Origin: Saccharicrinis sp.
Lineage (GTDB): Bacteria; Bacteroidota; Bacteroidia; Bacteroidales; Marinilabiliaceae
Assembly (NCBI GenBank): GCA_024635555.1
Contig: JAGXIO010000017.1
Coordinates: 29,797 to 93,796, forward strand
Direction of reading: 5' to 3'
Length of the DNA: 64,000 nt
Shown: positions 4,734 through 28,857 of the stretch, piece after piece
How the letters are laid out: each line of letters begins with the position of its first letter
How positions within the stretch are numbered: position 1 is the stretch's first letter
Position numbers and translations under genes: made by a program
Notes under the pieces: model-generated
The model's database searches: none
What the model was told of the DNA's origin: nothing
What the model saw: only the letters and a program-made list of their open reading frames with translations

Positions 4734-5864
4734 TTGAAAAAAATCACCATCATAAATCAGGATTCGGGCTATTTAATGATCGACATCGCCAATGATTATA
4801 TCCGTAAGGGATATGATACTACTTTAATTGCAGGGAGGATTGTGCAAAGAGATATTCCTTTAAATAAGGATGTACACGTAAAAAAAATCGTGCAGTACAA
4901 CCGATCCTCAAACTTCAAACGATTAATAACCTGGTTTGTCGCTACTATTCAAATATGGACGATAGTATTTTTTAAATCTCGCAAATCACATTTACTCATT
5001 GTCAGCAATCCTCCTCTTGCGCCGCTTTTGCCTTTATTATTGCCCAACAAGTATTCGTTGTTGATCTTCGATTTGTTTCCCGACGCACTGTCCGAATATG
5101 GTTTTGTCAAGGATAAATCGACTATTATAAAATTATGGGGGCGAGCCAACAAAAAGGTGTATGCTGGGGCAAATAAAAATTATACCTTGACCAAAGGTAT
5201 GCGCAAAGCTATGGGTAATTATACTTCAACAGAAAAAATAGACATCGTACCCTTATGGACTAATAATTCATTTTTGAAACCGATGTCAAAAGATAACAAC
5301 TCCTTTATTAAGGAACATGGTTTGGAGGGTAAGTTTGTGGTGCTTTATTCGGGTAATTTTGGTTATGCACATCAGGTTGATTTGATTATTGACCTAGCAG
5401 CTAAAATATACGACCCAAACATTGTGTTTGTTTTGGTGGGTGGAGGACATACCGAAGCAAAACTGAAAAGTAGAATTGATAAAGAAGGTATTTGCAATTG
5501 CCTGATACTTCCATGGCAAACCGTGGACATGCTACCTTACTCCCTCTCGTCGGCCGATTTGTCGATAGTGAGTTTGAGCGAAAATGCCACGAACCTGGCC
5601 ATTCCCAGTAAAGTATTTAATTATATGTCGGTTGGGTCGCCCATATTAGGAATCACGGGTGCCGGTTCCGACTTGGAAAGTTTGATATTGGATTATGAAT
5701 TAGGCAAATCATTTACTGCCGGTCAATCAGATCAAATCGTAAATTTCATAAAAGAACTGGCGGGTAATAGTGCCCTCTCTGATTTTTATAGTGCCAATTC
5801 TCTTAAAGCCACAAATAAGCACACCTCTAAAAATGTTGAACTCATAACACAATTCGATGTATAA
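4734..5864 (+). CDS. Glycosyltransferase (GT4 / WbuB-like)
   Basis: KFVVLYSGNFGYAHQVDLII, SLSENATNLAIPSKVFNYMSVGSPILGI. Confidence 0.88.
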   Translation: MKKITIINQDSGYLMIDIANDYIRKGYDTTLIAGRIVQRDIPLNKDVHVKKIVQYNRSSNFKRLITWFVATIQIWTIVFFKSRKSHLLIVSNPPLAPLLPLLLPNKYSLLIFDLFPDALSEYGFVKDKSTIIKLWGRANKKVYAGANKNYTLTKGMRKAMGNYTSTEKIDIVPLWTNNSFLKPMSKDNNSFIKEHGLEGKFVVLYSGNFGYAHQVDLIIDLAAKIYDPNIVFVLVGGGHTEAKLKSRIDKEGICNCLILPWQTVDMLPYSLSSADLSIVSLSENATNLAIPSKVFNYMSVGSPILGITGAGSDLESLILDYELGKSFTAGQSDQIVNFIKELAGNSALSDFYSANSLKATNKHTSKNVELITQFDV

Positions 5865-6447
5865 AAAATTCTTTAAACAGGTCATAGATTTTTTCCTGGC
5901 TTTAATTGCTGCAATCCTTTTAATGCCGATCTTTATAGTTGTTTTCATCGCCATAAAACTCGAATCAAAGGGTCCAGCCGTCTTTCACCAAGCACGTTTG
6001 GGTAAAAACGGAAAGATATTTACCGTGTTAAAATTTCGTTCTATGGTGGCCGATCAGAGCCAAATAAAGAAAAGCACTACGGTTTACGAAAACGATCCCA
6101 GAATAACCCGGATAGGTGCTTTTATTCGAAAAACCAGTATTGACGAATTGCCACAGGTGTTTAATATTATAAAGGGCGAGATGAGTTTTATAGGGCCACG
6201 TCCGCCGGTGCCTCATTTTCCGAAAAAATATGACCAGTACAACGATTTTGAAAAACAACGATTTGATGTGAAGCCAGGAATCAGTGGTCTGGCACAAATC
6301 CGCTGCCGCGAAATTCACGATTGGAATATCAACATTCCCATCGACGTGGAATATGTAAACAACTATTCTTTCGTCTATGATGTTAAATTGTTTTTAGCCT
6401 CTTTTATGACTTTTTTTAAACACGATAATATTTATACAAAAGGGTGA
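5857..6447 (+). CDS. Initiating sugar (phosphoglycosyl) transferase, PglC/WcaJ-type
   Basis: FHQARLGKNGKIFTVLKFRSM, RKTSIDELPQVFNIIKGEMSFIGPRP, DVKPGISGLAQ; overlaps the preceding CDS by 8 nt. Confidence 0.95.
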   Translation: MYKKFFKQVIDFFLALIAAILLMPIFIVVFIAIKLESKGPAVFHQARLGKNGKIFTVLKFRSMVADQSQIKKSTTVYENDPRITRIGAFIRKTSIDELPQVFNIIKGEMSFIGPRPPVPHFPKKYDQYNDFEKQRFDVKPGISGLAQIRCREIHDWNINIPIDVEYVNNYSFVYDVKLFLASFMTFFKHDNIYTKG

Positions 6448-6703: not shown

Positions 6704-7399
6704 ATGAACAAAACTATCGCCATACATCAACCCAATTATTTGCCATGGCTGGGTTATTTTTATAAAATTTCTCAATCCGATGTCTTTGTATTTCTTGACG
6801 ATGTGCAGTTTTCGAACCAAGGGATGCACAATTACACCTATCTAAAAACGTCCAACGGTCCTTATCGCCTAAAATATCCGGTCAATCAAAAATTTGGTGA
6901 CGATATAAAGCAGGTATCATCAAAAGATGAAATCAATTGGAAGAAAAAGCATCTGGATACCATTGCCTCAAATTATAAAAAAGCGCCACATTTTGAAGAA
7001 GTGTTTGAGGATTACAAGCATATTTTAAATCAGGAATACCAAGATATTGTAGATCTTAACACTGCTTTTATCCTTTTTTATGCCAATAAAATGGGCATCA
7101 ACACACAGTTCGTGCGTTCTTCCGAGCTAAATATAGAATCGAACCGTACCGAAAAAATTATAGATATTTGTAAAGCCTTGGGCGGGAACGTATATTACTC
7201 CGGAACTGGCGCTAAAGCCTACCAAACAAATGAGGAATATGATTCACAGGGAATCGAGCTTCGGTATTCAGTTTTTAAACCAGTGGAATATCCCCAACTG
7301 TGGAACGAGTTTCAATCAAATGTTTCGGCATTAGACTATTTTATGAACTGCGGATACGATTTTAGTAGGATACTAAAAGAACAAAAAAACGGTGTATAA
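6704..7399 (+). CDS. WbqC family protein
   Basis: N-term IAIHQPNYLPWLGYFYKISQSDVFVFLDDVQFSNQGMHN is the WbqC signature. Confidence 0.95.
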   Translation: MNKTIAIHQPNYLPWLGYFYKISQSDVFVFLDDVQFSNQGMHNYTYLKTSNGPYRLKYPVNQKFGDDIKQVSSKDEINWKKKHLDTIASNYKKAPHFEEVFEDYKHILNQEYQDIVDLNTAFILFYANKMGINTQFVRSSELNIESNRTEKIIDICKALGGNVYYSGTGAKAYQTNEEYDSQGIELRYSVFKPVEYPQLWNEFQSNVSALDYFMNCGYDFSRILKEQKNGV

Positions 7400-8373
7400 T
7401 GGAAATTGGTAGCTTTATCGGCCTCGATTTGGAAGGCACCCAAGAATATTACAATAACGAACTGGACATGGCGCGGTTAAATTCTGCTCGATCAGGTATT
7501 TACCATGCCTGTGGGCTTTACGGATGTCATACGGTTTATATCCCGTTTTATTTATGTCCGAGCGTAAATAAGTATTTGACCGATCACGGGATAAAGACCA
7601 TCAAATATCATATCAATTCGTATTTTGAACCAATAGGGGTTAAGCAGGAGCCGAATAGCGCCTTTGTTATAGTAAATTATTTTGGTATACTAAGCCACCG
7701 TAAGATGCAGGAAATGGCTATGCGGTTCCGAAATGTTATCGTAGATAATTCGGCTGCCTTTTACGCAAGCCCTATAGATGCATGTTATAACGTATATTCT
7801 CCCCGTAAATTTTTTGGTGTGCCCGATGGGTGCTATGTTATTGGAAATTATGCATCAAAGGGCATCAAGCAATATGATCAGGATCGTTCGGCCGGAACAT
7901 CGTCTTTTTTGTTTGCTACCATCGAACAGGGAACCAACCTTACCTACAACGAGCGGATGAAAAACGAGGAACGTATTGATAAATCTGGCTCACTACGCAT
8001 GTCGGAACTGACACGTTGCCTGCTCAAAAATATCAATTACCCAAGGATTAGAGCCAAAAGAATAGAGAACTTTAATTATGCCCACTTGATGTTTAATAAA
8101 ATAAATAAATGCGATCCGTTCCATTCGTTCGATAGCACTTGTGTTCCCATGGTGTATCCCTTGGTTATTGAAAATGAAGAGCTGGACAAAAAACTCAGAG
8201 AAAAAAAAGTGTATGTGGGCCGCCTATGGACAAGCGTTACGCAGGAGGTAGAATCAAATTCGTTTGAAGGTCGCATGTCGAAATTTATGGTGCCCCTACC
8301 CATCGATCAACGATATGGACGTACCGAAATTACCCAAATGCGCAATTACGTGAGCGATATATTAAGCGAATAA
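7399..8373 (+). CDS. DegT/DnrJ-fold PLP-dependent aminotransferase-like protein
   Basis: ARSGIYHACGLYGCHTVYIPFYLCPSV, VIVDNSAAFY, YSPRKFFGVPDG (candidate PLP lysine); TAATG overlap with wbqC. Confidence 0.6.
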   Translation: MEIGSFIGLDLEGTQEYYNNELDMARLNSARSGIYHACGLYGCHTVYIPFYLCPSVNKYLTDHGIKTIKYHINSYFEPIGVKQEPNSAFVIVNYFGILSHRKMQEMAMRFRNVIVDNSAAFYASPIDACYNVYSPRKFFGVPDGCYVIGNYASKGIKQYDQDRSAGTSSFLFATIEQGTNLTYNERMKNEERIDKSGSLRMSELTRCLLKNINYPRIRAKRIENFNYAHLMFNKINKCDPFHSFDSTCVPMVYPLVIENEELDKKLREKKVYVGRLWTSVTQEVESNSFEGRMSKFMVPLPIDQRYGRTEITQMRNYVSDILSE

Positions 8374-8466: not shown

Positions 8467-9627
8467 TTGAAAATAAATGAAGGCAGAATGTCTATAAAAG
8501 GTACAAGATTAAATAAGGAGTTGGTTGTAAAGGATAAATTAAACATTCGTATTCATCCAATTGGGAGTATCGATGCGCAGGAATGGGATCAGTTTTTAAA
8601 CAGCACATCTGAATCTACTTTTTTTTGTACCACCGATTGGTGGAATACTTTTGAGGATGCATATATTCTGCAAATACGTGATAATAATGGAAAGCTTGTG
8701 GGAGGGGTGCCTTTTCGTACCCTAAAGGTTTTACCAATTATAGGAAAATATTTTAGGTTTTCGTGGTTAGATTCATCCGTACTCGTCTCTGATGGGCTTA
8801 ATCAAGAGGATCATCTAAACATTAAAAAAATATCCTTTGAATACCTGGTAAAGCATCTCGAAAAGACTGGTGTGATAGTCATGACCATATCGTCCAAATC
8901 ACATTCCCTCGATGAAAACCTTTTCCAGGTCTTATTCAAATCATCAGAAAAGTGTGCCACCCTTATTGTAGATTTGAGTAAAGAGGAGGAAGATATTTTA
9001 AAGTCTTTCGAGAAGAGAAAAAAAAACTCCATCCGTAAAGCCAAAAAAATGGGTGTTGTAATTAATATATTGGAAGGGGAATCCGGCCTCCCGCTTATAC
9101 CTGATTATTGTTTGTTGCAAAACAAAATGTTCGAGTACAAGAGTAATTCGTATTCGGATATATATGCCAAGTCGGCGCAGCATATAAAATCCATATTGTT
9201 GTCGAAGCAAAAAACATTTATTGCGATGGCCTATTATCAGGGGCAACCTGTTGTAGGCAATATCATGGTGTCGCACAAAAAAGCGATTTATGCCTATTTA
9301 GGAGCCTCGGATAATATGCTGAATAGGGCTACAAATGCGTCTACCTTGCTCGAACTCGAATCCATGATGTATGTAAAGCGTAAAGGTTATGATAGCTATG
9401 ATTTAGGCGGCATACCTGCCCAAGTTCCGGATAGTACAGATAGCCTGTACGGGATTTATTTATATAAAAAAGGTTTTGGTGGAGCTCACTTTGTTTTTGA
9501 TTGTGCAACCTATATGCTCCGCAAAAGTAGATATCGCTTTATTTGGAGGCTCCGTAAACTCGATACCAACCCCGTGATGCGTAAAATATATAAATTACTA
9601 AAAAAATTTCAAGAGAAAAACAAGTAA
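8467..9627 (+). CDS. FemAB/GNAT-like (peptidoglycan bridge / BioF2-type) acyltransferase, copy 1
   Basis: STFFCTTDWWNTFED, KRKKNSIRKAKKMGV, YLGASDNMLNRATNASTLLELESMMYVKRKGYDSYDLGGIP. Confidence 0.85.
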   Translation: MKINEGRMSIKGTRLNKELVVKDKLNIRIHPIGSIDAQEWDQFLNSTSESTFFCTTDWWNTFEDAYILQIRDNNGKLVGGVPFRTLKVLPIIGKYFRFSWLDSSVLVSDGLNQEDHLNIKKISFEYLVKHLEKTGVIVMTISSKSHSLDENLFQVLFKSSEKCATLIVDLSKEEEDILKSFEKRKKNSIRKAKKMGVVINILEGESGLPLIPDYCLLQNKMFEYKSNSYSDIYAKSAQHIKSILLSKQKTFIAMAYYQGQPVVGNIMVSHKKAIYAYLGASDNMLNRATNASTLLELESMMYVKRKGYDSYDLGGIPAQVPDSTDSLYGIYLYKKGFGGAHFVFDCATYMLRKSRYRFIWRLRKLDTNPVMRKIYKLLKKFQEKNK

Positions 9628-9641
9628 TAATTTTTTTAAAA

Positions 9642-10733
9642 ATGAGCAACGATTTAAGTATCAATATAAGCCACATCAATAAGCTCGACGAAAACGAGTG
9701 GAATGATTTCCTTTTCAAATCATCAGATTCTACTTTCTTCTGCACCACAGGTTGGTGGAAGACTTATCAGGATGTGTACATATTACAAATCAGAAATGAG
9801 CAGCAGCAGCTTATGGCCGGCGTTCCTTTCCGTATTTTATCGGTGTTACCACTTTTAAAAAGATTTTTTAAAAGTGCATGGCTAGATTCCTCTGTCGTGG
9901 TGAGTGATGAGTATGATGAGAAGGTCAGGTATCACCTTAAAAAGGCCGCATTCGATTATTTGTTGGCCTACCTGAAAAAAAGGAGTGTGATAAACATGAC
10001 TATTTCTCCCAAGACCAGATCGCACGACGGTGAGCTGTTTAAAGAGATATTCGGGAATGTCGACAAATGTGCCACCTTTGTGGTCGATCTTAGTCTCGAT
10101 GAGCAAGCTATTTTTAAATCTTTTTCAAAGGGAAGAAAAAGCGCCATAAAAAAGGCACAAAAAATGGGTGTTGAAGTTAAAATATTGGAGGGGGCATCGG
10201 GTTTTTCTCTTCTTTCCGACTATTGTTATCTGGAAAATAAGCTTTTTGATAACAAGCAGAATTCATATTCTAATATCTACTTTAAATCGGAAGCTTATCT
10301 AAAAAAGTTGTTGTCCTCGGGTAATACCTATGTTGCGATGGCGTATTATGAAGATAAACCGGTGGCGGGAAGTATCATCGTAGCCCATTATAAGAGCTTG
10401 TATTACTATTTGGGCGCTTCTGATATTGAGCTTAATAGACTAACAAATGGAGCCTCATTGTTGAAGTATGAGAGCATATTGTATGGAAAGAAAAAAGGAT
10501 GTCAAGAATTTGATTTAGGTGGCATTCCATTTGTGGAACTTGATGCCTCGGATAGCCTATACGGCGTATATAAGTTTAAAAAAGATTTTGGGGGTGAGCG
10601 ACAAGAGTTCGACTGTAATAATTACACAATTCACCCTCGGCGTTATAAGCTCATTTGGAGATTAAGAAAGTTCGAATCGAATCCTTTAGCTCAAAAAGTG
10701 TATAGATTGTTAACTGGGGGTAAAGTTATTTAA
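9642..10733 (+). CDS. FemAB/GNAT-like acyltransferase, copy 2 (tandem paralogue)
   Basis: Collinear with the preceding CDS (STFFCTTGWWKTYQDVYILQIRN..., YLGASDIELNRLTNGASLLKYESILYGKKKGCQEFDLGGIP). Confidence 0.85.
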   Translation: MSNDLSINISHINKLDENEWNDFLFKSSDSTFFCTTGWWKTYQDVYILQIRNEQQQLMAGVPFRILSVLPLLKRFFKSAWLDSSVVVSDEYDEKVRYHLKKAAFDYLLAYLKKRSVINMTISPKTRSHDGELFKEIFGNVDKCATFVVDLSLDEQAIFKSFSKGRKSAIKKAQKMGVEVKILEGASGFSLLSDYCYLENKLFDNKQNSYSNIYFKSEAYLKKLLSSGNTYVAMAYYEDKPVAGSIIVAHYKSLYYYLGASDIELNRLTNGASLLKYESILYGKKKGCQEFDLGGIPFVELDASDSLYGVYKFKKDFGGERQEFDCNNYTIHPRRYKLIWRLRKFESNPLAQKVYRLLTGGKVI

Positions 10734-10799: not shown

Positions 10800-11471
10800 A
10801 TGAAAAAAAATATATTAATATTAGCCCCTCATCCCGATGATGAAGTACTTGGCTGCGGAGGTATAATCCGTAAAAAATCAGAAAAGGGGCATCAGGTTTA
10901 TGTGCTGGTAGCCACGCGTGGATCGGCAAAGCGATACAGCGAAGAGCGCGTGGCCAATGTACGGAAGGAGGCTTTACTGGCTCATGCCATATTGGGAGTT
11001 ACCGAAACATTGTTTCTGGATTTTCCCGCGCCGGATTTGGATCAGGTGTCAAAGGCTGATATGTCGGGTGAAATTGCTCAAGTGTTAAAGAAATTTGAGA
11101 TAGAAGAGTTGTTTTTGCCACACCGTGGCGATATACACCATGATCATCAAGCTATTTTTAATGCCGGACTGGTTGCTGCACGTCCTGTGCATGGCAATAC
11201 CGTTAAAAGCATTTATGCCTACGAAACGCTATCCGAAACAGAATGGGCCGCACCGTTTGCCTCTGATGCTTTTATTCCCAATTATTTTGTGGATATTTCC
11301 GATAATTTTGCATCAAAGCTGGATGCCATGGTGCAGTTTAAAAGTCAAGTCAGGGAGTTTCCCAATTCGCGCTCTCTGCAAGCAATTGAAGCTTTGGCTA
11401 AGTATAGAGGTTGCACCGTTGGCGTTGACCGTGCCGAAGCATTTATGGTTATTCGTGTAATAGAAGATTGA
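10800..11471 (+). CDS. PIG-L family deacetylase
   Basis: LAPHPDDEVLGCGGIIRKK, PHRGDIHHDHQA. Confidence 0.95.
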   Translation: MKKNILILAPHPDDEVLGCGGIIRKKSEKGHQVYVLVATRGSAKRYSEERVANVRKEALLAHAILGVTETLFLDFPAPDLDQVSKADMSGEIAQVLKKFEIEELFLPHRGDIHHDHQAIFNAGLVAARPVHGNTVKSIYAYETLSETEWAAPFASDAFIPNYFVDISDNFASKLDAMVQFKSQVREFPNSRSLQAIEALAKYRGCTVGVDRAEAFMVIRVIED

Positions 11472-11600
11472 GTTGGTGTAAAAAATAAAATTACAAACAA
11501 ATATTTAACCGATTGCAATACGAAAAACATTATATTCGGTATTAGAAGTCTCATTTAAAACGACTCAATAATTCAGTTATTAATCTAAAAACTTACTACC

Positions 11601-11825
11601 ATGAAAGATAAATTTATTACAGCTCTGGCCGAGGCGCTCGAAATGGAAGACAATGAAATTAAAATGGAAGATACCTTTAGAGATTACGATACCTACGACT
11701 CACTCTCGGAGCTCTCTATTTTAGCCATGCTTGATTCTGATTTTGGTATCGAACTCGAAATGAACGAATATAATACGTATTTAACCGTGGGAGATTTGTA
11801 CAAGCGTGTTTCTTCCAGTAAATAA
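11601..11825 (+). CDS. Acyl carrier protein
   Basis: 74 aa acidic protein with phosphopantetheine-site-like YDSLSELSILAMLDSDFG. Confidence 0.9.
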   Translation: MKDKFITALAEALEMEDNEIKMEDTFRDYDTYDSLSELSILAMLDSDFGIELEMNEYNTYLTVGDLYKRVSSSK

Positions 11826-11834
11826 CCTATAAAC

Positions 11835-12893
11835 ATGGCACTCTTTTCTTTTAACAATATAGGTATTTCCGGAATGTCCGGTGCTGTACCTAAAAATGTA
11901 ATCAACAACTACGAATACGACGTGTTTTTTCCTAAGGAAGAAATAAAAGAAGTGGTGGATAAAATAGGGGTGAAGGAACGGCGGTTTGCAGATGAAAATA
12001 CTTGCGCCTCCGATTTGTGCTACGCCGCTGCTGAAGACCTCCTTAATGGGATGAATGTAAACCGCGACGAAATTGATCTCTTAATTTTTATCTCCCAAAC
12101 TCCTGATTACCGGATGCCAGCCACTTCCATTCTATTGCAAAATAGGTTGGGATTGTCCAGGTCGGCCATTGCCTTTGATATTAGCTTGGGTTGTTCTGCC
12201 TTTTTGTATGGCCTATCCGTAGCTTATTCGATGATTGCTTCCGGAGCAGTTAAAAAAGCCCTTATACTGGATGGCGAAACTAGGTCGAAAGTATATTCGC
12301 AAAAGGATCGTAAAACGGCCTTCTTGTTCGGCGATGCTGGTATAGCTGCGTTGATAGAAAAAAATGATAAGTTTGGCACCAGCTGGTTCTCGTTGAACTC
12401 CGATGGAGAACGTGAAGACCTGATAAAAATACCCGCTGGTGGATATCGAAACATGTCAAGTGCAGAAACGCTAAAAGAAAAGGTGGTGGATGAGTATGGT
12501 AACATGCGATCCGACGAGCATGGATATATGAATGGAGCTGATGTGTTTAACTTTGTTTTGCGTGAAATACCCAAGGATTTTAAACGTTTGGTGGAATATG
12601 CCGGTGTGGATACCTCTACTGTAGATTATTTTGTGTTTCATCAGGCCAATCAATACATCAACGGACTGGTTGCTAAAAAATTAAAGTTAGCAGATGAAAA
12701 AATTCCATCAACGGTTCATAAGTATGGAAATACTTCATCTGTATCTATTCCTCTAACTATTGTGTCGGAATTAAAAGATAAACTCAATAAGCATTCTCGC
12801 CTATTGCTTTGCGGCTTCGGCGTAGGCCTGTCTTGGGGAACTGCCATTATTGATGTGGACAACTGTTACGTAGGAAACGTGGTGGAAGTATAG
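11835..12893 (+). CDS. 3-oxoacyl-ACP synthase III (FabH/KAS III) family
   Basis: Cys-His-Asn set visible: DISLGCSAFLYGL, FHQANQYI, GNTSSVSIP. Confidence 0.95.
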   Translation: MALFSFNNIGISGMSGAVPKNVINNYEYDVFFPKEEIKEVVDKIGVKERRFADENTCASDLCYAAAEDLLNGMNVNRDEIDLLIFISQTPDYRMPATSILLQNRLGLSRSAIAFDISLGCSAFLYGLSVAYSMIASGAVKKALILDGETRSKVYSQKDRKTAFLFGDAGIAALIEKNDKFGTSWFSLNSDGEREDLIKIPAGGYRNMSSAETLKEKVVDEYGNMRSDEHGYMNGADVFNFVLREIPKDFKRLVEYAGVDTSTVDYFVFHQANQYINGLVAKKLKLADEKIPSTVHKYGNTSSVSIPLTIVSELKDKLNKHSRLLLCGFGVGLSWGTAIIDVDNCYVGNVVEV

Positions 12894-12985
12894 TGGCTGA
12901 TGGCTGGTAGCTGATGGCTGATGGCTAATGGCCGATAGCTGATGGCCGGTAGCTGATAGCTTATGGCATTTAGCCAATGGCTGCT
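12894..12985. repeat. Degenerate tandem repeat (tggctgatggctga-like)
   Basis: tggctgatggctggtagctgatggctgatggctaatggccgatagctgatggccggtagctgatagcttatggc. Confidence 0.85.
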
Positions 12986-13034
12986 CGAGATAAACCAACA
13001 AACCAATGCTTGTGATAGACATGCTGTAAATCAA

Positions 13035-13088
13035 GCCCCAACGGGGCGCAGTCTAATAACCTAGGGTAAGCGCAGCGCAGCCCTAGGT
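13035..13088. repeat. Hairpin-rich REP-like element
   Basis: gccccaacggggc palindrome followed by acctagggtaagcgcagcgcagccctaggt palindrome. Confidence 0.7.
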
Positions 13089-13313
13089 ATTTAACGCAAT
13101 GTAAATCGGCACAAGCATAAAGTTGTTATTTGCACACCCTTGTTTTGTGCCGCAAATGCATGATGTTGTTTAGTGGATATTTCGTTACAAATTCCGCAGT
13201 ATTGTGGGACCGGTTCTCAGGGTAAGGGAATAAAACTAATTGTGTAAGCATTTTTAATTCTTCGTACTCTTATACTAATCTGGCTTGCCAAAATCAATAT
13301 CTAATCCATCAAT

Positions 13314-14081
13314 ATGAATAAAACACCTTTTACCCTGCACAACAAGGTAATTGTAATTACTGGTGCCTCTTCGGGTATCGGTAGGCAATGTGCCATTACA
13401 TGCAGCCAGATGGGAGCTGCTGTTGCGTTGCTTGGTAGGGATGCCGATCGCTTAAACGACACCTTGCAGGCAATGGAAAATATATCTAAGCATAAAACGT
13501 TTCCATTTGATTTATGCGATTTTGAGCAAGCAGCGGCAAGCATTAAGGATATCAGTACCCAATTTGGTCAAATAAGCGGCCTAATAAATTGTGCCGGAAT
13601 ATCTACAACCCTACCCATAAATGCCGTATCTACGGATAAAATGGAAACGTTTTTCAGAACCAATGTATTGGGATCGTTAAACTTAACTAAGCTGGTGGTT
13701 AGTGCATCAAACTTCTCGAAGCAAGGAGGTAGTGTTATTTTTATTAGTTCGGTGATGGGTGTGGTGGGGGCCAAAGGGAAAACCTTGTACTCCATGACAA
13801 AAGGAGCCTTGGTTTCAGCTGCCAAGTCATTGGCGGTTGAATTAGCACCCAGAAGTATTAGAGTAAATTCGGTTGCACCTGGCGTGGTACAAACCCCCAT
13901 GTCGCAATCGGCCATTTATTCCAGAAATCAAGAAGCCCTCGATTACGTAACAAACCAGCATCCCTTGGGGCTCGGCTTACCCGAAGATGTGGCCAACGCC
14001 TGCGTATTCCTGTTAAGTGATGCTTCGCGCTGGATCACCGGTACCAATTTAGTGGTAGATGGAGGCTACCTGGCCAAATAG
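13314..14081 (+). CDS. SDR family oxidoreductase (FabG-like)
   Basis: ITGASSGIGRQ, NCAG, YSMTKGAL (YxxxK), VAPGVVQTPM. Confidence 0.95.
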   Translation: MNKTPFTLHNKVIVITGASSGIGRQCAITCSQMGAAVALLGRDADRLNDTLQAMENISKHKTFPFDLCDFEQAAASIKDISTQFGQISGLINCAGISTTLPINAVSTDKMETFFRTNVLGSLNLTKLVVSASNFSKQGGSVIFISSVMGVVGAKGKTLYSMTKGALVSAAKSLAVELAPRSIRVNSVAPGVVQTPMSQSAIYSRNQEALDYVTNQHPLGLGLPEDVANACVFLLSDASRWITGTNLVVDGGYLAK

Positions 14082-14361: not shown

Positions 14362-15015
14362 ATGACAGACCTTATTATTATCGGTGCTGGTGGACATGCA
14401 GCCGAAATAAACGACTATATATGTTTTGCACAGCTAGAATCCGATGTGCAGCAAATTCAAATCAAAGGATTTATAGACGATAACCCAAATAGCTATCAAG
14501 CCTATCAATTCTCAGCCCCGTATCTGGGAACTATAAAAGATCATGTTATATCCAAAAATGCATCTTATTTGATGGCCATTGCGAACCTCAATTATAGAAG
14601 ACCTATTATAGAACGTTTTGTGGAGAATGGTGCAACTTTCATTTCTTTCGTTCATAAAACAGCCTACATATCTCCCTCGGCCGTTATAGGTAATGGTTCC
14701 ATAATTGGCCCTAATGTAAATATTGGCCCTAATGTAAAAATAGGAGAGTTTAATTTAATCAATTCCCGATGCAGCTTAGGGCACGATACACAAATGGGCA
14801 ACTATAATTTCATTAGTCCCAATGTTTGTTTCTCAGGTTTTACAGCTATTGGGCACGAAAATTTATTCGGAATAAATAGTGTTACCATACCCCATATTTC
14901 CGTAGGCCATAACAATAAAATTGCCGCAGGTATGGTACTCGACCAAAATGTTAAAGATGATGAGGTGGTGTTTTATCGCTTCAAAGAAAAAATAATAGCA
15001 GTTCCAAAAAAATAA
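14362..15015 (+). CDS. Sugar O/N-acetyltransferase, NeuD/PglD-like left-handed beta-helix
   Basis: IIIGAGGHAAEI N-term and hexapeptide repeats (VIGNGSIIGPNVNIGPNVKIGEFNLINSRCSLGHD). Confidence 0.93.
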   Translation: MTDLIIIGAGGHAAEINDYICFAQLESDVQQIQIKGFIDDNPNSYQAYQFSAPYLGTIKDHVISKNASYLMAIANLNYRRPIIERFVENGATFISFVHKTAYISPSAVIGNGSIIGPNVNIGPNVKIGEFNLINSRCSLGHDTQMGNYNFISPNVCFSGFTAIGHENLFGINSVTIPHISVGHNNKIAAGMVLDQNVKDDEVVFYRFKEKIIAVPKK

Positions 15016-15022
15016 AAATAAG

Positions 15023-16162
15023 ATGAGCCAAACCGAACGAGTTTATTTATCAAGTCCCCATATGTCGGGGCACGAGCAAAAATATATACAACAAGCTTTT
15101 GAGCAAAACTGGATTGCTCCACTGGGACCCAATGTAAATGCCTTTGAAGATACCCTGGCTAATTATTGTGGTGTAAAACATGCCGCAGTGCTTAGTTCGG
15201 GCACTGCAGCACTTCATTTAGCACTTATTATGTTGGACGTAAAGGCGGGTGATGAGGTGCTGGTGTCAACTTTTACTTTTTCTGCTACGGTAAATCCAAT
15301 TGTTTATCAAAGTGCCAAACCCGTGTTTATTGATAGTGAACCGGATACCTGGAACATGGATCCTCAGCTACTAGAGCAGGCACTCAAGGAACGGGTCGCA
15401 AATAATACCTTACAAAAAGTAAAAGCTATTGTTGTGGTTCATCTTTACGGGATGCCCGCCAAAATGGATCAGATTATGGAGGTAGCCAATCGGTACGGGG
15501 TGCCGGTAATTGAAGATGCCGCCGAAGCGCTAGGGAGTAAATACAAAGGTAAACCCTTAGGCTCCTTTGGTAAATTGTCCATACTTTCATTTAACGGTAA
15601 TAAAATAATTACCACTTCGGGCGGTGGTGCCTTGCTGTGTAACGAGGAAGAGTATGCCATTAAAGCCCGTTTTTTGGCTACACAAGCCCGCGACCAGGCC
15701 CCGCATTATCAGCATAGCCAAATTGGTTACAACTATCGGATGAGTAATGTGCTTGCCGGAATTGGCAGAGGACAGATGGAAGTGATAGATAAAAGAGTGG
15801 AAAAGAGAATAGAGAATTATAATTTTTATAAATCTAGTTTTAAAAGTATCGAAGCAATACAATTTCCTGATCTCCCGGGAACCGATTATTTCTCAAACCG
15901 TTGGCTAACAACCTTCCTAATAGATAAGGATAAAACAGAAGTTACCTATTCTCAGATTCAAGAAGCACTTGAAAAGTACAATATCGAATCGCGTCCTTTG
16001 TGGAAACCCATGCATTTACAACCCATTTTTAATATTTATGAGGCATACATGAATGGAACTTCCGAAAATCTTTTTGCCTCTGGTATCTGCATACCCAGCG
16101 GATCCAACCTTGCCGATGCGCAACGCACGCAAGTGGTGGAAGTAATAAGGCAATGCTTTTAA
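15023..16162 (+). CDS. DegT/DnrJ/EryC1 aminotransferase (PglE-like)
   Basis: SSPHMSGHEQKYIQQAFEQNWIAPLGPNVNAFE, EDAAEALGSKYKGKPLGSFGKLSILSFNGNKIITTSGGGAL. Confidence 0.95.
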   Translation: MSQTERVYLSSPHMSGHEQKYIQQAFEQNWIAPLGPNVNAFEDTLANYCGVKHAAVLSSGTAALHLALIMLDVKAGDEVLVSTFTFSATVNPIVYQSAKPVFIDSEPDTWNMDPQLLEQALKERVANNTLQKVKAIVVVHLYGMPAKMDQIMEVANRYGVPVIEDAAEALGSKYKGKPLGSFGKLSILSFNGNKIITTSGGGALLCNEEEYAIKARFLATQARDQAPHYQHSQIGYNYRMSNVLAGIGRGQMEVIDKRVEKRIENYNFYKSSFKSIEAIQFPDLPGTDYFSNRWLTTFLIDKDKTEVTYSQIQEALEKYNIESRPLWKPMHLQPIFNIYEAYMNGTSENLFASGICIPSGSNLADAQRTQVVEVIRQCF

Positions 16163-20536: not shown

Positions 20537-21805
20537 TTGAATATGAAAAAATTTGCTCTTTTCTTGTTGCTCCTTCCGATTTATCATGTTACTCCTGCGC
20601 AGATTGTGGCAGATCATAACGTAGTGGATATGTACGATAAAATACCCCAACAATGGGTGGATGAAGTAAAAAAAATGTGGGTAAGTGTGGCAGGAAAGTC
20701 ACATGCAGAAGCATATATTACCGGAGCCGACATGCTCGATGACAATGACCCTACCAAACCGTCTTCAAAAAAATATGAAGGTGAACCGGAACCTTATACG
20801 GATCAACATTTAAGGATAAGTACAGCAATCCGGGGTACACAAAATTCCCCTACTGCATGGGAATACCAAAACGAGCAACAACATTGGTACACTAACCCAG
20901 AAGCTCGTGAGCGCATTAAGGCATATCTTCAGTATTGTCATGATATTGGTCCCAAATTAAGTGCTACTATGTACGGTTGGTCATACGATGCCCAATTTGA
21001 AAATGAGCCTTCGGGTGAATATGACCCTGCTTATCATGTCCGTTGGGCCGGAAGGACTACTGATGGGCCAGATGGTAGCCGCATTTGGGGCTTGGATGAT
21101 CAAGATAAAGCGATAACTGGAAATAGCGTTAGTATGAATACTTATATCGAGACCGTTAATGAGTACAATCAATATTGCAAAGATAACGACATAGCCACAA
21201 AGGTAATATTTACTACCGGGTCGGTCGATAATGGTGATCAAGGATGGGCTAAGGGTGAACGAGGCTATCAGCAATTCTTAAAATGGCAGTATATACGGGA
21301 TTACGTGAAAAATTCTGGAGGTGGTTACTTGATAGATTATGCGGACATACTATGCTACAATGATGCCGGACAATTTGAAACGACAAGCTGGATAGATAAT
21401 AATCAAACTGAGCAGACCTACGGCTTAATACACCCTGATAATCTGGAGGGTGGTTATACGAGTCACATTGGCTATAACGGAGCCGAACGTGTGGCCAAAG
21501 CGATGTGGTGGTTACTCGCCCGCATGGCCGGTTGGGATGGTAAACCGATTTCAACTTCCGTACTTCAGGATGATAAAACAGATACTATTCAGGTGATAGA
21601 AAGAGATGGGCTCGTGGAGATAAAATCAGAAGAAGATATCACGGGGAAGGTGGTTAGTTTAATTAGCGTAAACGGGCAAACAGTGCAAAAAAAAATGATA
21701 GAAGGTAATACTTGCCAAATCAATATGGATAGTCTTCCCAGCGGAATGTATCTGCTTGTAATTGCCTTGGACAATCCTTTTAGTAAAAAAATTATTAAGC
21801 ATTAA
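20537..21805 (+). CDS. Secreted SGNH-like protein with T9SS-type C-terminal sorting domain
   Basis: Signal peptide MKKFALFLLLLPIYHVTPAQ; C-term ISVNGQTVQKKMIEGNTCQINMDSLPSGMYLLVIALDNPFSKKIIKH. Confidence 0.65.
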   Translation: MNMKKFALFLLLLPIYHVTPAQIVADHNVVDMYDKIPQQWVDEVKKMWVSVAGKSHAEAYITGADMLDDNDPTKPSSKKYEGEPEPYTDQHLRISTAIRGTQNSPTAWEYQNEQQHWYTNPEARERIKAYLQYCHDIGPKLSATMYGWSYDAQFENEPSGEYDPAYHVRWAGRTTDGPDGSRIWGLDDQDKAITGNSVSMNTYIETVNEYNQYCKDNDIATKVIFTTGSVDNGDQGWAKGERGYQQFLKWQYIRDYVKNSGGGYLIDYADILCYNDAGQFETTSWIDNNQTEQTYGLIHPDNLEGGYTSHIGYNGAERVAKAMWWLLARMAGWDGKPISTSVLQDDKTDTIQVIERDGLVEIKSEEDITGKVVSLISVNGQTVQKKMIEGNTCQINMDSLPSGMYLLVIALDNPFSKKIIKH

Positions 21806-22994: not shown

Positions 22995-25013
22995 CTATTG
23001 CTTTGTAACCGTTGTGCTAATTATATCTACGCCATTATCTAAGTTTATTTTGTAATTGCCTCTTAGCAGTGGAGCTAGGTTTAATACCATTTTGTTGAGG
23101 TTTGGTTTTGCCGAAAAATAATCTGTCAACATGGTTTGCCCCACTTCGTCTGTAACGGTCACTGTAATATTGGCCACCTTCGAACAGGTGAATTGAATGG
23201 CAAACAGCCCAATAGTAGGGTTGGGGAAGCTTTTAACTATTTTATAAGTGACATTCACATCATCGGGTAGCTTGGTAACTGTACACGATGTGTTTGAGTT
23301 GCCATTGCTTAAGCGAATCGTATATACACCCGCAGCTAGGCCACTTAAATCAACCTCAACCTGATTGTTTTGTCCAATACTGGCCTCATCACTTGGCTGA
23401 ATAAACTGGTTGCCCGTATCGTCGGTTGCTGTAATGCTAACGGTGCCTGCTTGTGGTGAGTAATAAGTTACCGATACAATATCCGCCGTTTTATTGGGGG
23501 TGTAGTCTGTTATTTCTATAGGTTTATAGTCGTTGGGCACATATTCAAAAGCTCCAAGGTCTGGGGCAGCACCTAGATATGTATTGGCGTCAATGCCTGC
23601 AGCTCTTAATTCACTTGCAATTACTGTTTCTAAATCAAGTCCGGCATCGATTAAATCACTGCCTGCAACAAGTTTCATAAAATTAACATCAGGCAGCGAA
23701 CCATCGGGTTTACGGGGAGATTTCAGTTCTTGGACATTTAAACTAATAAAATCATCGTCTGTAACCGTGTAGGTTTCGTTTATTCTAAACCAAGGCAAAC
23801 TACCAACTTCTTCTGCTGGTGCAAATCTAAAAGTGTTATTATATGTTTCGTAAAATTCACCTACTGATAGAATATAGGGATAACCAGCCGCTGTGATCTC
23901 TACGGGTTTATAAGCTATATTATTATAATATTTAGGAGGGGTTATGCCATTATAAGCATCATTTATAGATATTGATATACTTATGCCGTTGTTATAAAGC
24001 GAATTGTTATACACCCTAGATTCATTAGGATAATACGGGGCATAAGCTAAATCATATAAACCAAGACCTAAATTACCAGCTGCAATACAATTCTTAAGTA
24101 CCCGTCTTACTCCAGTAACATTAGGGCCTACATGAGTATTCCCAATCGCGTCTTGTGTAGCACCGATACCTCTATTAGCTCCATACTTAAAACCATTACC
24201 ATCAAGAGCACCGGCGAAACCTTGATTAAATGCCCAGCAGTTATCAAATATCAAACGTCCTGGCCCCGATATATCAAAACCATCATCGCCATTACCCCAA
24301 GCACGGCAACCATAAAAATAAAGGTAAGTACCGCTTTCAGCATCCATCTTACACCCATCAGAACCATTACCTGGTACAGAACTTACTAAATCTACACAAT
24401 CATATATGTCACAATTAATAAACCGAGTTGTATCAGTAGGTATTTCAGGATATTCAGGATGCCCTGCAACACCCCAATAAGTCATACCTCTACCCCCAAC
24501 ATCGTGTATAGTCATATTCTCAAAAATCATGTTATGAGTAATACCGTTACCAATACCACAAGCAAGTTCTTGCGAAGTTGGCTGTATAACATTACGTACA
24601 GTAAGACCTTTGAGGTGATACCAGCCAACACGAGTAATATCTAATGCACTATTAAAGCGATTTCCCGTCATATCCACTTGTGAGCAATCAAGGATAGGAA
24701 CTTCGCCAGGATAGTTGAAAAATTTAATAGGAGCTTCTCTAGTGCCTGTATTGCCATATCCTAATTCAGGGTCAACTATTACTATGGCATTACCAAATGC
24801 ATGTTCCTGTGGATACCAAACGCCCCCCCTAAAATAAACCGTTTCGCCCGCTTGTGCCGTAGAAAAGGCTTTTTGCCATGTTCCCCATGGTCTGTCGTAT
24901 GTGCCAGGGCCGGAATCGTTCCCATCTACTGCCACATAATAATCGCCCCCTATGTCCTGTGCCGTAATAAGTAAGGGCACGAACATCAATAAAGTTAATA
25001 GTAACTTCTTCAT
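22995..25013 (-). CDS. Secreted right-handed parallel beta-helix protein (polysaccharide lyase-like) with T9SS-type C-terminus
   Basis: Signal peptide, YYVAVDGNDSGPGTYDRPWGTWQKAFSTAQAGETVYFRGGVW start, repeated strand motifs, C-term NPTIGLFAIQF...LRGNYKINLDNGVDIISTTVTKQ. Confidence 0.8.
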   Translation of the reverse strand: MKKLLLTLLMFVPLLITAQDIGGDYYVAVDGNDSGPGTYDRPWGTWQKAFSTAQAGETVYFRGGVWYPQEHAFGNAIVIVDPELGYGNTGTREAPIKFFNYPGEVPILDCSQVDMTGNRFNSALDITRVGWYHLKGLTVRNVIQPTSQELACGIGNGITHNMIFENMTIHDVGGRGMTYWGVAGHPEYPEIPTDTTRFINCDIYDCVDLVSSVPGNGSDGCKMDAESGTYLYFYGCRAWGNGDDGFDISGPGRLIFDNCWAFNQGFAGALDGNGFKYGANRGIGATQDAIGNTHVGPNVTGVRRVLKNCIAAGNLGLGLYDLAYAPYYPNESRVYNNSLYNNGISISISINDAYNGITPPKYYNNIAYKPVEITAAGYPYILSVGEFYETYNNTFRFAPAEEVGSLPWFRINETYTVTDDDFISLNVQELKSPRKPDGSLPDVNFMKLVAGSDLIDAGLDLETVIASELRAAGIDANTYLGAAPDLGAFEYVPNDYKPIEITDYTPNKTADIVSVTYYSPQAGTVSITATDDTGNQFIQPSDEASIGQNNQVEVDLSGLAAGVYTIRLSNGNSNTSCTVTKLPDDVNVTYKIVKSFPNPTIGLFAIQFTCSKVANITVTVTDEVGQTMLTDYFSAKPNLNKMVLNLAPLLRGNYKINLDNGVDIISTTVTKQ

Positions 25014-26581: not shown

Positions 26582-28483
26582 ATGAAAAGTATTCTATTAA
26601 ATATTTTTAATGGTCGTGTTGTTTCCCCTTGGTGGATTCTGCTGATTGATCTGGGTATTTCGGCAAATGCCTTTGTCCTCGCCTTTATTCTTAGGTTAAA
26701 CGTTCAATTAACGGCATATTCGGTTTCCGATATGTTGATTGGGGGTACGTATGTGTTGACGGTTTATTTGGTATCCTTTCTTTTGTTTGGTTCTTACCGT
26801 GGAGTTATCAGGCATAGCAATTATAACGAGCTAAAGCTTTTGGCTGTAGCATGTTTCAGTGCTTTTGTTTTTCTAATATTATCCAGTTCGGTTTTTGAGT
26901 GGCTCCAATATGGCTGGTTTATAGTGCCTCGTTTGGTATTGATATTTCATTTTTTGATGACCATAGTACTCAGCTTTACGTTTAGGATTTTAGTGAAAGA
27001 AACCTATAGTTCATTAACTAAAAAGAATACCTCCACTAATGTGTTTATTTATGGAGCCGGGGATATGGGGCAAATTACGCTTGAAGCTATCCGTAGCGAT
27101 AAAGCCAATCAGTATAATGTAGTTGGAATAATAGATGATAACGCGAACATGAAAAACGTTGTGCTACATTCTGTTCCGGTTTTTAGTTGGGAGAAAGCAC
27201 TGAGGGTTGGTGAGGCTAAACAGATAGAGGTGGTTATTCTGGCCATTAACCGTATTACAGTTAAACGTAAACACGATATTACAAATGCCTGTTTGGATAA
27301 GGGATGGAAATTAAAGGTAATGCCCTCGGTGGGCAATTGGGTAAATGGTATTTCCAACCAAAATCAGATTAGGGATATACGCATTGAAGATATACTGGGA
27401 CGCGAAGAGATTAGGCTGAATCAACTGCAGATAATGGATGGTTTGGATGGAAAAGTGATAGCGGTTACTGGAGCTGCCGGTTCCATTGGTTCCGAAATAG
27501 TGCGACAGCTGTTACGCTTTTCGGTTAGAAAAATTGTAATGGTGGACATGGCCGAGTCGGCGTTGTACGATTTACAACAAGAGTTGTTGTTGAGTCATAC
27601 GGATGCACCGTTTAATGTTGTTTTGGCTGATATTACCAATGCGCATCGCATGCAGGAGGTTTTTGATTTATATCGTCCTCAGATAGTTTTTAATGCAGCA
27701 GCCTATAAACATGTACCCTTATTAGAGGAATTTCCTTACGAAGCTATCCGCGTAAATATTGGTGGGGTGAAGGTGTTGGCCGATTTGGCTATTAAGTATC
27801 AAGTGGAGAAATTTGTAATGGTTTCTACGGATAAAGCGGTCAATCCAACCAATGTGATGGGTGCTTCTAAGCGCATATGCGAAATATATATTCAGGCTTT
27901 GTCACAATTAAAAGATGTGAAAACTGAGTTTGTGACCACCCGTTTTGGTAATGTGTTGGGTTCAAATGGTTCGGTGGTACCTTTGTTTAAAAGGCAAATA
28001 GAACGGGGTGGGCCTATAACTGTAACGCACAAAGATATTACCCGATATTTTATGACCATTCCCGAAGCGTGTCAATTGGTTCTTGAAGCCGGCTTTATGG
28101 GACGTGGTGGTGAGATATTTGTATTCGACATGGGTGAACCGGTTAAAATTGTTGATCTGGCCAAGGAGATGGTTCGCCTCTCTGGGTTAAAACTAGGTGA
28201 GGATATTGATATTACCTACACTGGACTACGACCCGGAGAGAAATTATACGAAGAACTGCTGGCGTCTAAGGAAAGTACAATGCCTACACATCATGAGAAA
28301 ATTATGATTGCCAAAGTACGGCAATATGAATATGTCATTATCAAAGAGCGTATTAAAGAGCTGTTACTTGCGCTTAAAATGGAAAATAATGAGCACCTCG
28401 TGTCCCGAATGAAAGAGTTGGTACCTGAATATAAATCGCAAAACAGTCAGTATAGTGAGTTGGATAAACAGATGATACAATAG
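26582..28483 (+). CDS. Membrane-anchored nucleoside-diphosphate-sugar 4,6-dehydratase (CapD/PglF/WbpM-like)
   Basis: N-terminal TM helices, CoA-binding-like domain (YGAGDMGQ), second Rossmann VTGAAGSIGSEIVRQLL, STDKAVNPTNVMGASKR, TGLRPGEKLYEELL. Confidence 0.97.
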   Translation: MKSILLNIFNGRVVSPWWILLIDLGISANAFVLAFILRLNVQLTAYSVSDMLIGGTYVLTVYLVSFLLFGSYRGVIRHSNYNELKLLAVACFSAFVFLILSSSVFEWLQYGWFIVPRLVLIFHFLMTIVLSFTFRILVKETYSSLTKKNTSTNVFIYGAGDMGQITLEAIRSDKANQYNVVGIIDDNANMKNVVLHSVPVFSWEKALRVGEAKQIEVVILAINRITVKRKHDITNACLDKGWKLKVMPSVGNWVNGISNQNQIRDIRIEDILGREEIRLNQLQIMDGLDGKVIAVTGAAGSIGSEIVRQLLRFSVRKIVMVDMAESALYDLQQELLLSHTDAPFNVVLADITNAHRMQEVFDLYRPQIVFNAAAYKHVPLLEEFPYEAIRVNIGGVKVLADLAIKYQVEKFVMVSTDKAVNPTNVMGASKRICEIYIQALSQLKDVKTEFVTTRFGNVLGSNGSVVPLFKRQIERGGPITVTHKDITRYFMTIPEACQLVLEAGFMGRGGEIFVFDMGEPVKIVDLAKEMVRLSGLKLGEDIDITYTGLRPGEKLYEELLASKESTMPTHHEKIMIAKVRQYEYVIIKERIKELLLALKMENNEHLVSRMKELVPEYKSQNSQYSELDKQMIQ

Positions 28484-28608: not shown

Positions 28609-28857
28609 ATGAGGGAAGATATACGAAAATTTATTGCGGAAACTTCATTTACTAACTTATCCGACATTAAGGATGAAACCTTAATATTCGATGAGGGCAT
28701 TTTTGATTCAATGGGACTATTGGGACTAATTAACTTCTTGGAAAGCGAATTCAATGTTGTAACAGAAGATACCGAATTACAAGAAGAAAACTTTGGGAGC
28801 GTTAAACGAATTGCCGCTTTTGTTCAGAAAAAAATAGGTGTAGTTGTTGCTGACTAA
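28609..28857 (+). CDS. Acyl carrier protein (second, isolated)
   Basis: FDEGIFDSMGLLGLINFLESEFNV with DSM phosphopantetheine-type motif; ATG at 28609 preferred to 28591. Confidence 0.85.
   Translation: MREDIRKFIAETSFTNLSDIKDETLIFDEGIFDSMGLLGLINFLESEFNVVTEDTELQEENFGSVKRIAAFVQKKIGVVVAD

Follow-up and report, generated by a model that had tools for sequence, protein, structure and literature searches.

An ACP-KASIII-SDR cassette, together with the PglD homologue encoded downstream from it, probably makes a 3-hydroxyacyl group (most likely 3-hydroxybutyryl) on the ACP and places it on the 4-amine of a UDP-sugar. The linkage ACP-KASIII-SDR-PglD(-PglE) is conserved, and both its gene content and its intact active sites are directly observed; we infer the primer, the chain length, the acylated position and the order of the steps from sequence. 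In the proposed pathway, the KASIII would use the dedicated ACP for the condensation of malonyl with a short primer, which is most likely to be acetyl, and the SDR would reduce the 3-keto group, to yield a 3-hydroxyacyl-ACP, most likely 3-hydroxybutyryl-ACP. PglF- and PglE-type enzymes would make UDP-2-acetamido-4-amino-2,4,6-trideoxyhexose, the 4-amine of which would be N-acylated from 3-hydroxyacyl-ACP by the PglD homologue. A PglC-type enzyme would then probably load the acylated sugar onto undecaprenyl phosphate, for incorporation into a Wzx/Wzy-type surface polysaccharide. The cassette contains neither a dehydratase nor an enoyl reductase, so reduction would be predicted to stop at the hydroxy stage and, with one KAS and one ketoreductase, 3-hydroxybutyryl-ACP would be the expected intermediate. 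The nearest solved structures to the PglE-type protein are 1o61 and 4ztc (E = 1e-101), which we take to be C. jejuni PglE, and the same protein reached 399 of 420 bits for TIGR04181; the structural match makes UDP-QuiNAc4N the most likely acceptor. The likely product is, on these predictions, UDP-QuiNAc4N, N4-acylated with 3-hydroxybutyrate. A search of the literature for 3-hydroxybutyryl/Qui4N gene clusters found nothing direct.

The stretch of DNA analysed (64 kb, hereafter referred to as the window) is part of a 93.8-kb contig from a 5.3-Mb draft genome. All the genes named in the first-pass annotation are real, correctly placed ORFs with the expected domains (ORF calls plus Pfam/NCBIfam profiles), and those considered here lie on the forward strand. 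The PIG-L and FemAB genes come first, followed by those for the ACP, KASIII and SDR, and then by PglD and PglE; this arrangement, as originally described, was confirmed by ORFs, Pfam domains and intact catalytic residues. The interval first assigned to the module (10800-14081) holds the correct genes, but position 10800 is the start of the PIG-L gene, not that of the ACP gene. The dedicated ACP (11601-11825; PP-binding, 2.9e-8) carries a DSL motif with Ser34, and is followed by the FabH-like condensing enzyme KASIII (11835-12893; ACP_syn_III, 5.6e-21, and ACP_syn_III_C, 4.6e-26), with a Cys120-His269-Asn299 triad, and by the SDR, a FabG-like 3-ketoacyl-ACP reductase (13314-14081; adh_short_C2, 6.1e-57). 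Next come the PglD/NeuD-type hexapeptide N-acyltransferase (14362-15015; PglD_N plus hexapeptide), the proposed ACP-to-4-amine transferase, and the PglE-type 4-aminotransferase (15023-16162; DegT domain). The PglC- and PglF-like genes previously reported for the window were found at 5857-6447 (a phosphosugar transferase and proposed user of the finished UDP-sugar; Bac_transf, 1e-61) and 26582-28483 (a full-length membrane 4,6-dehydratase; Polysacc_synt_2, 3e-118, plus CoA_binding_3), such that all four Pgl types are encoded within the window. The 20 kb upstream from the window encode a Wzc-like kinase domain, sugar isomerases, a flippase, a polymerase-like membrane protein, glycosyltransferases and an asparagine-synthase-like protein, these products having been named by inspection of the proteins rather than by domain search. 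This gene content is that of a Wzx/Wzy-type polysaccharide locus.

A second ACP-like ORF, absent from the first-pass annotation, is located directly after the PglF gene (28612-28857) and has an FDSMG motif and a weak PP-binding match. Its homologue adjoins an asparagine-synthase-like (AsnB-like) gene in three other loci (L102, L106 and L108); in the window, it has no such neighbour, and BipA is encoded next to it instead. Given the position of its homologue in these relatives, this ORF is unlikely to be the partner of the KASIII.

The spacer between the KASIII and SDR genes (12894-13313, with no assigned strand) is 420 bp long and filled with repeats, whereas the corresponding distance is less than 80 bp in most close relatives. 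It begins with a degenerate 7-bp tandem array of about 10 copies (12894-12967), followed by a palindromic element (approximately 13028-13107) with two further copies in the genome (84-90%). Given this spacer and a 280-bp gap before the PglD gene, a single transcript is not assured.

The catalytic residues of the cassette enzymes were conserved in alignments with their relatives: the KASIII triad in 48/48 sequences, Ser34 of the ACP in 37/37, Tyr159 and Lys163 of the SDR in 42/43 and 43/43, respectively, and His141 of the PglD homologue in 17/17. The genes characteristic of N-acyl-sugar cassettes of the vio/wfp kind are all present: an ACP with its serine, a distinct KASIII with Cys-His-Asn, a linked SDR with Tyr-Lys, a linked PglD/VioB-type transferase and a 4-aminotransferase. 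We considered the possibility that the cassette is a misplaced housekeeping FabH/FabG/AcpP set. The KASIII shares 31% identity with the FabH of this genome and 28% with E. coli FabH, and the SDR is 36% identical to E. coli FabG. In E. coli FabH, Trp32 stacks on the CoA adenine and Arg249 serves ACP docking; at the positions of Trp32, Phe87 and Arg249 (E. coli numbering), the window KASIII has Glu, Met and Tyr, respectively. The genome's own FabH retains all three residues and adjoins an L32 gene (its product being read as ribosomal protein L32), and the genome has eight PP-binding loci in all, the ACP differing from the others. The housekeeping explanation was rejected on these grounds, the window KASIII being, by sequence, a different protein from the housekeeping FabH. 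The canonical FabH beside the L32 gene also counts against the idea of a fatty-acid or secondary-metabolite module with no connection to the glycan locus in which it lies, as does the repeated linkage to PglD, PglE and PglC across families described below; both the KASIII and the SDR belong to large, broad families, which leaves some room for such an explanation, but we consider it extremely improbable.

Relatives of the cassette were identified by a KASIII search of related genomes and genome contigs, with subsequent mapping of the window proteins onto the loci obtained, several of which are fragments of draft genomes. The order PglC-ACP-KASIII-SDR-PglD(-PglE) recurs in several Bacteroidota families, with the PglC-type gene upstream from the ACP gene in most relatives, and the presence of the same gene order in other families places the cassette far beyond chance. 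In the maximum likelihood tree, the window KASIII falls within an 11-member clade (support 100/99), and all 11 members have an ACP, an SDR and a PglD-type gene on the same strand, with maximum gaps of 239, 424 and 1472 bp, respectively; the linked PglD of one locus (L049, genome G072) is only about 30% identical. Two loci found later (L144 and L145) have the same gene order as the window clade, and in L144 the series PglC-ACP-KASIII-SDR-PglD-PglE-PglF fits into about 9 kb of a single strand. The 13 loci with the module (hereafter referred to as module loci) are the window, L005, L006, L007, L008, L047-L052, L144 and L145; going by the length of its contig, L146 is apparently the same contig as L008. 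In L051, the SDR gene seems to be split by a frame change into two overlapping fragments (11125-11876), which may reflect an assembly error. The survey confirmed the conservation of the ACP-KASIII-SDR linkage, tied to PglD/PglE, but the linkage of these genes to FemAB and PIG-L, which had also been expected, was not conserved. This conserved cassette gives good support to the original proposal, in which an amino sugar receives a short hydroxyacyl group from a module dedicated to its synthesis.

The PglD homologue is almost certainly the acyltransferase, rather than the FemAB-like proteins. It scored 151 bits against TIGR03570 (cut-off 160.8), and its nearest solved structures are VioB (7txp) and PglD (3bss). 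Among 149 related genomes, there were 36 PglD matches, the strongest eight of which (>150 bits) all have a KASIII relative no more than 3.5 kb away, versus only three of the 28 weaker matches (Fisher's test, 5e-6, or 2e-4 without the window's own genus). A similar picture emerged from 395 genomes drawn separately at class level, with the window's own genome set apart: a KASIII match above 400 bits was obtained for three genomes, and a PglD match above 200 bits for these same three and no others, with a spacing of about 0.8 kb between the two genes, two of these three genomes being from one genus. This linkage argues for acyl-ACP, not acetyl-CoA, as the putative donor of the PglD homologue. The co-location of PglD and KASIII, together with the distribution of FemAB and PIG-L, makes the PglD homologue the best candidate transferase.

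The first-pass annotation had assigned this transfer differently, with PIG-L freeing an amine, onto which FemAB-like proteins would move the acyl group from the ACP. The genes concerned are adjacent in the window, where FemAB-like proteins 1 and 2 (8467-9627 and 9642-10733; domain matches) precede the PIG-L deacetylase (10800-11471; Pfam, 2.4e-24), and PIG-L lies directly upstream from the ACP gene in the window, L007, L047 and L048. However, relatives of FemAB (E≤1e-20) were detected in only three of the 149 related genomes, all from the window's genus, and FemAB was missing from every mapped module locus outside this genus, so the cassette occurs elsewhere without it. FemAB2 weakly matches an aminoacyl-tRNA-dependent peptide synthase (9wqw, E = 6e-5), and the sole NCBIfam match of the pair is to pepcterm_femAB (TIGR03019), for which the genome has no other matches; these matches hint at amino-acid transfer, not acyl-ACP transfer. 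FemAB was rejected as the acyl-ACP transferase on the basis of this distribution and homology. A role for PIG-L in freeing the amine is not supported either: PglE already supplies a free 4-amine, and PIG-L and the WbqC-like protein (6704-7399; domain match) are both missing from eight of the 13 module loci (L005, L006, L008, L050-L052, L144 and L145). They occur together in the other five (window, L007, L047, L048 and L049), and PIG-L, which tracks WbqC rather than the module, was rejected as a core part. No P value is attached to this co-occurrence (5/5 versus 0/8), because the loci are related. The arrangement originally proposed for FemAB and PIG-L is, overall, very improbable, and we treat FemAB (genus-restricted), PIG-L and WbqC as accessory genes.

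These accessory genes might instead constitute a separate step of deacetylation and amino-acid addition, resembling that of the Vim proteins, unrelated to the cassette and possibly involved in anchoring type IX cargo. VimA also matches TIGR03019 (PMC7468200), WbqC and PIG-L co-occur as described above, and the products of the genes at 20537 and 22995 carry type IX sorting tails. However, the FemAB pair scored only 35.5 and 43.3 bits against TIGR03019, far below its cut-off of 260.35, and VimE is a CE4 deacetylase, belonging to a family other than PIG-L; amino-acid transfer by FemAB is therefore put forward as a hypothesis, and we consider this explanation of the accessory genes rather unlikely. 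It is compatible with the hydroxyacyl cassette. The two would be combined if a single polysaccharide carried a pair of exotic N-substituents, one being a 3-hydroxyacyl group made by ACP/KASIII/SDR/PglD and the other an amino acid from a Vim-like FemAB/WbqC/PIG-L step, perhaps serving as an anchor for type IX cargo, but this seems distinctly improbable. A literature search on WbqC found nothing directly relevant. Two proteins adjoining the glycan locus (20537-21805 and 22995-25013) have type IX secretion C-terminal sorting domains. A 324-aa DegT-like protein (7399-8373) accompanies the module in no genus other than that of the window; it had no Pfam match and no sequence match in the PDB, and its single-sequence AlphaFold model (pLDDT 29) was left unused.

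With neither Trp32 nor Arg249 in the window KASIII, the primer or its carrier could differ. The chain could also be longer or begin differently (3,5-dihydroxyhexanoyl, for example), through iterative use of the enzymes or an unusual primer, still with transfer by the PglD homologue. The substitution of the CoA-site residue Trp32 is consistent with such a chain, as are the yield of 3,5-dihydroxyhexanoyl from a similar kit in Flavobacterium psychrophilum (PMC6519341) and the enlarged kits of some relatives. However, a single KAS and a single SDR are present in the window clade, as in the vio island, which makes 3-hydroxybutyryl (PMC3927599), and the C6 kit of F. psychrophilum has two KAS genes; we therefore consider a longer or differently primed chain unlikely. 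The dihydroxyacyl substituent suggested by the first-pass annotation is, for the same reason, less likely here than the C4 monohydroxyacyl group predicted from one KAS and one ketoreductase. The enlarged kit of L049 comprises three KASIII, two SDR, an ACP, the distant PglD, a polysaccharide-deacetylase-like gene and PIG-L/WbqC, and may make a longer polyhydroxyacyl group. A variant kit in L104 (genome G129) adjoins AMP-ligase-like and formyltransferase-like genes, two SDR genes and one for a metallo-beta-lactamase-fold-like protein, a neighbourhood suggestive of an acyl group that is formylated or primed with an amino acid. The KASIII genes of a sister group (about 44% identical; L056, L147, L148 and L150) belong to another conserved operon, which, in the loci read, has the order ACP-KASIII-(SDR)-GT2 glycosyltransferase-GNAT-like protein, often with a second KASIII. 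KASIII matches of the sister-group kind or closer were present in 69 of the 395 class-level genomes.

The pathway favored here, with 3-hydroxybutyryl made on the ACP and transferred by the PglD homologue, has two published counterparts, and the likeness to both rests on gene content and order, not on comparison with VioS or Wfp sequences. The viosamine island of Pseudomonas syringae (vioS/vioR/acp/vioB/vioA) yields N-(3-hydroxy-1-oxobutyl)-viosamine, a product supported by mass spectrometry of mutants (PMC3927599). Like the window, it has one KASIII, one ketoreductase, a small ACP, a VioB/PglD-type transferase and a 4-aminotransferase; it differs in that its dTDP-viosamine is destined for flagellin, whereas the PglF, PglE and PglC types of the window point to a UDP-QuiNAc4N-type sugar in a Wzx/Wzy-type polysaccharide, and in that the window cassette has no methyltransferase. 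The wfpC-wfpG genes make the analogy to F. psychrophilum drawn in the first-pass annotation an apt one: NMR of the O-antigen shows 3,5-dihydroxyhexanoyl, the kit contains two KAS genes, and the PglD-type wfpG product is predicted to transfer the acyl group from the ACP to UDP-D-Qui2NAc4N (PMC6519341). This kit shares with the window its setting in a Bacteroidota polysaccharide locus, an ACP, KAS, ketoreductase and PglD homologue, and PglE/PglF, but the window has a single KAS. The acyl-making kit of the window is well supported, but systems of this type are already known from Pseudomonas flagella and F. psychrophilum; our analysis adds several further Bacteroidota families to the range of a kit that has been published but little studied. 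The combination of the KASIII clade with the linked PglD clade would provide a genomic rule for predicting the species in which a 4-amino sugar is N-acylated with a hydroxyacyl group instead of acetyl, and the range of kit sizes in relatives, from one KAS and one SDR to the three KAS and two SDR of L049, makes the relationship between gene count and acyl length testable. The Wbp/Vim pathway of Porphyromonas and Tannerella (PMC7468200), like the window, has FemAB-type and deacetylase genes beside sugar genes, a loose likeness that concerns the accessory genes, not the acyl cassette. Finally, the Campylobacter pathway to N,N'-diacetylbacillosamine uses the same four enzyme types (PglF, PglE, PglD and PglC), but its PglD transfers acetyl and is not accompanied by an ACP/KAS/SDR kit, whereas the PglD homologue of the window belongs to the kit-linked group.
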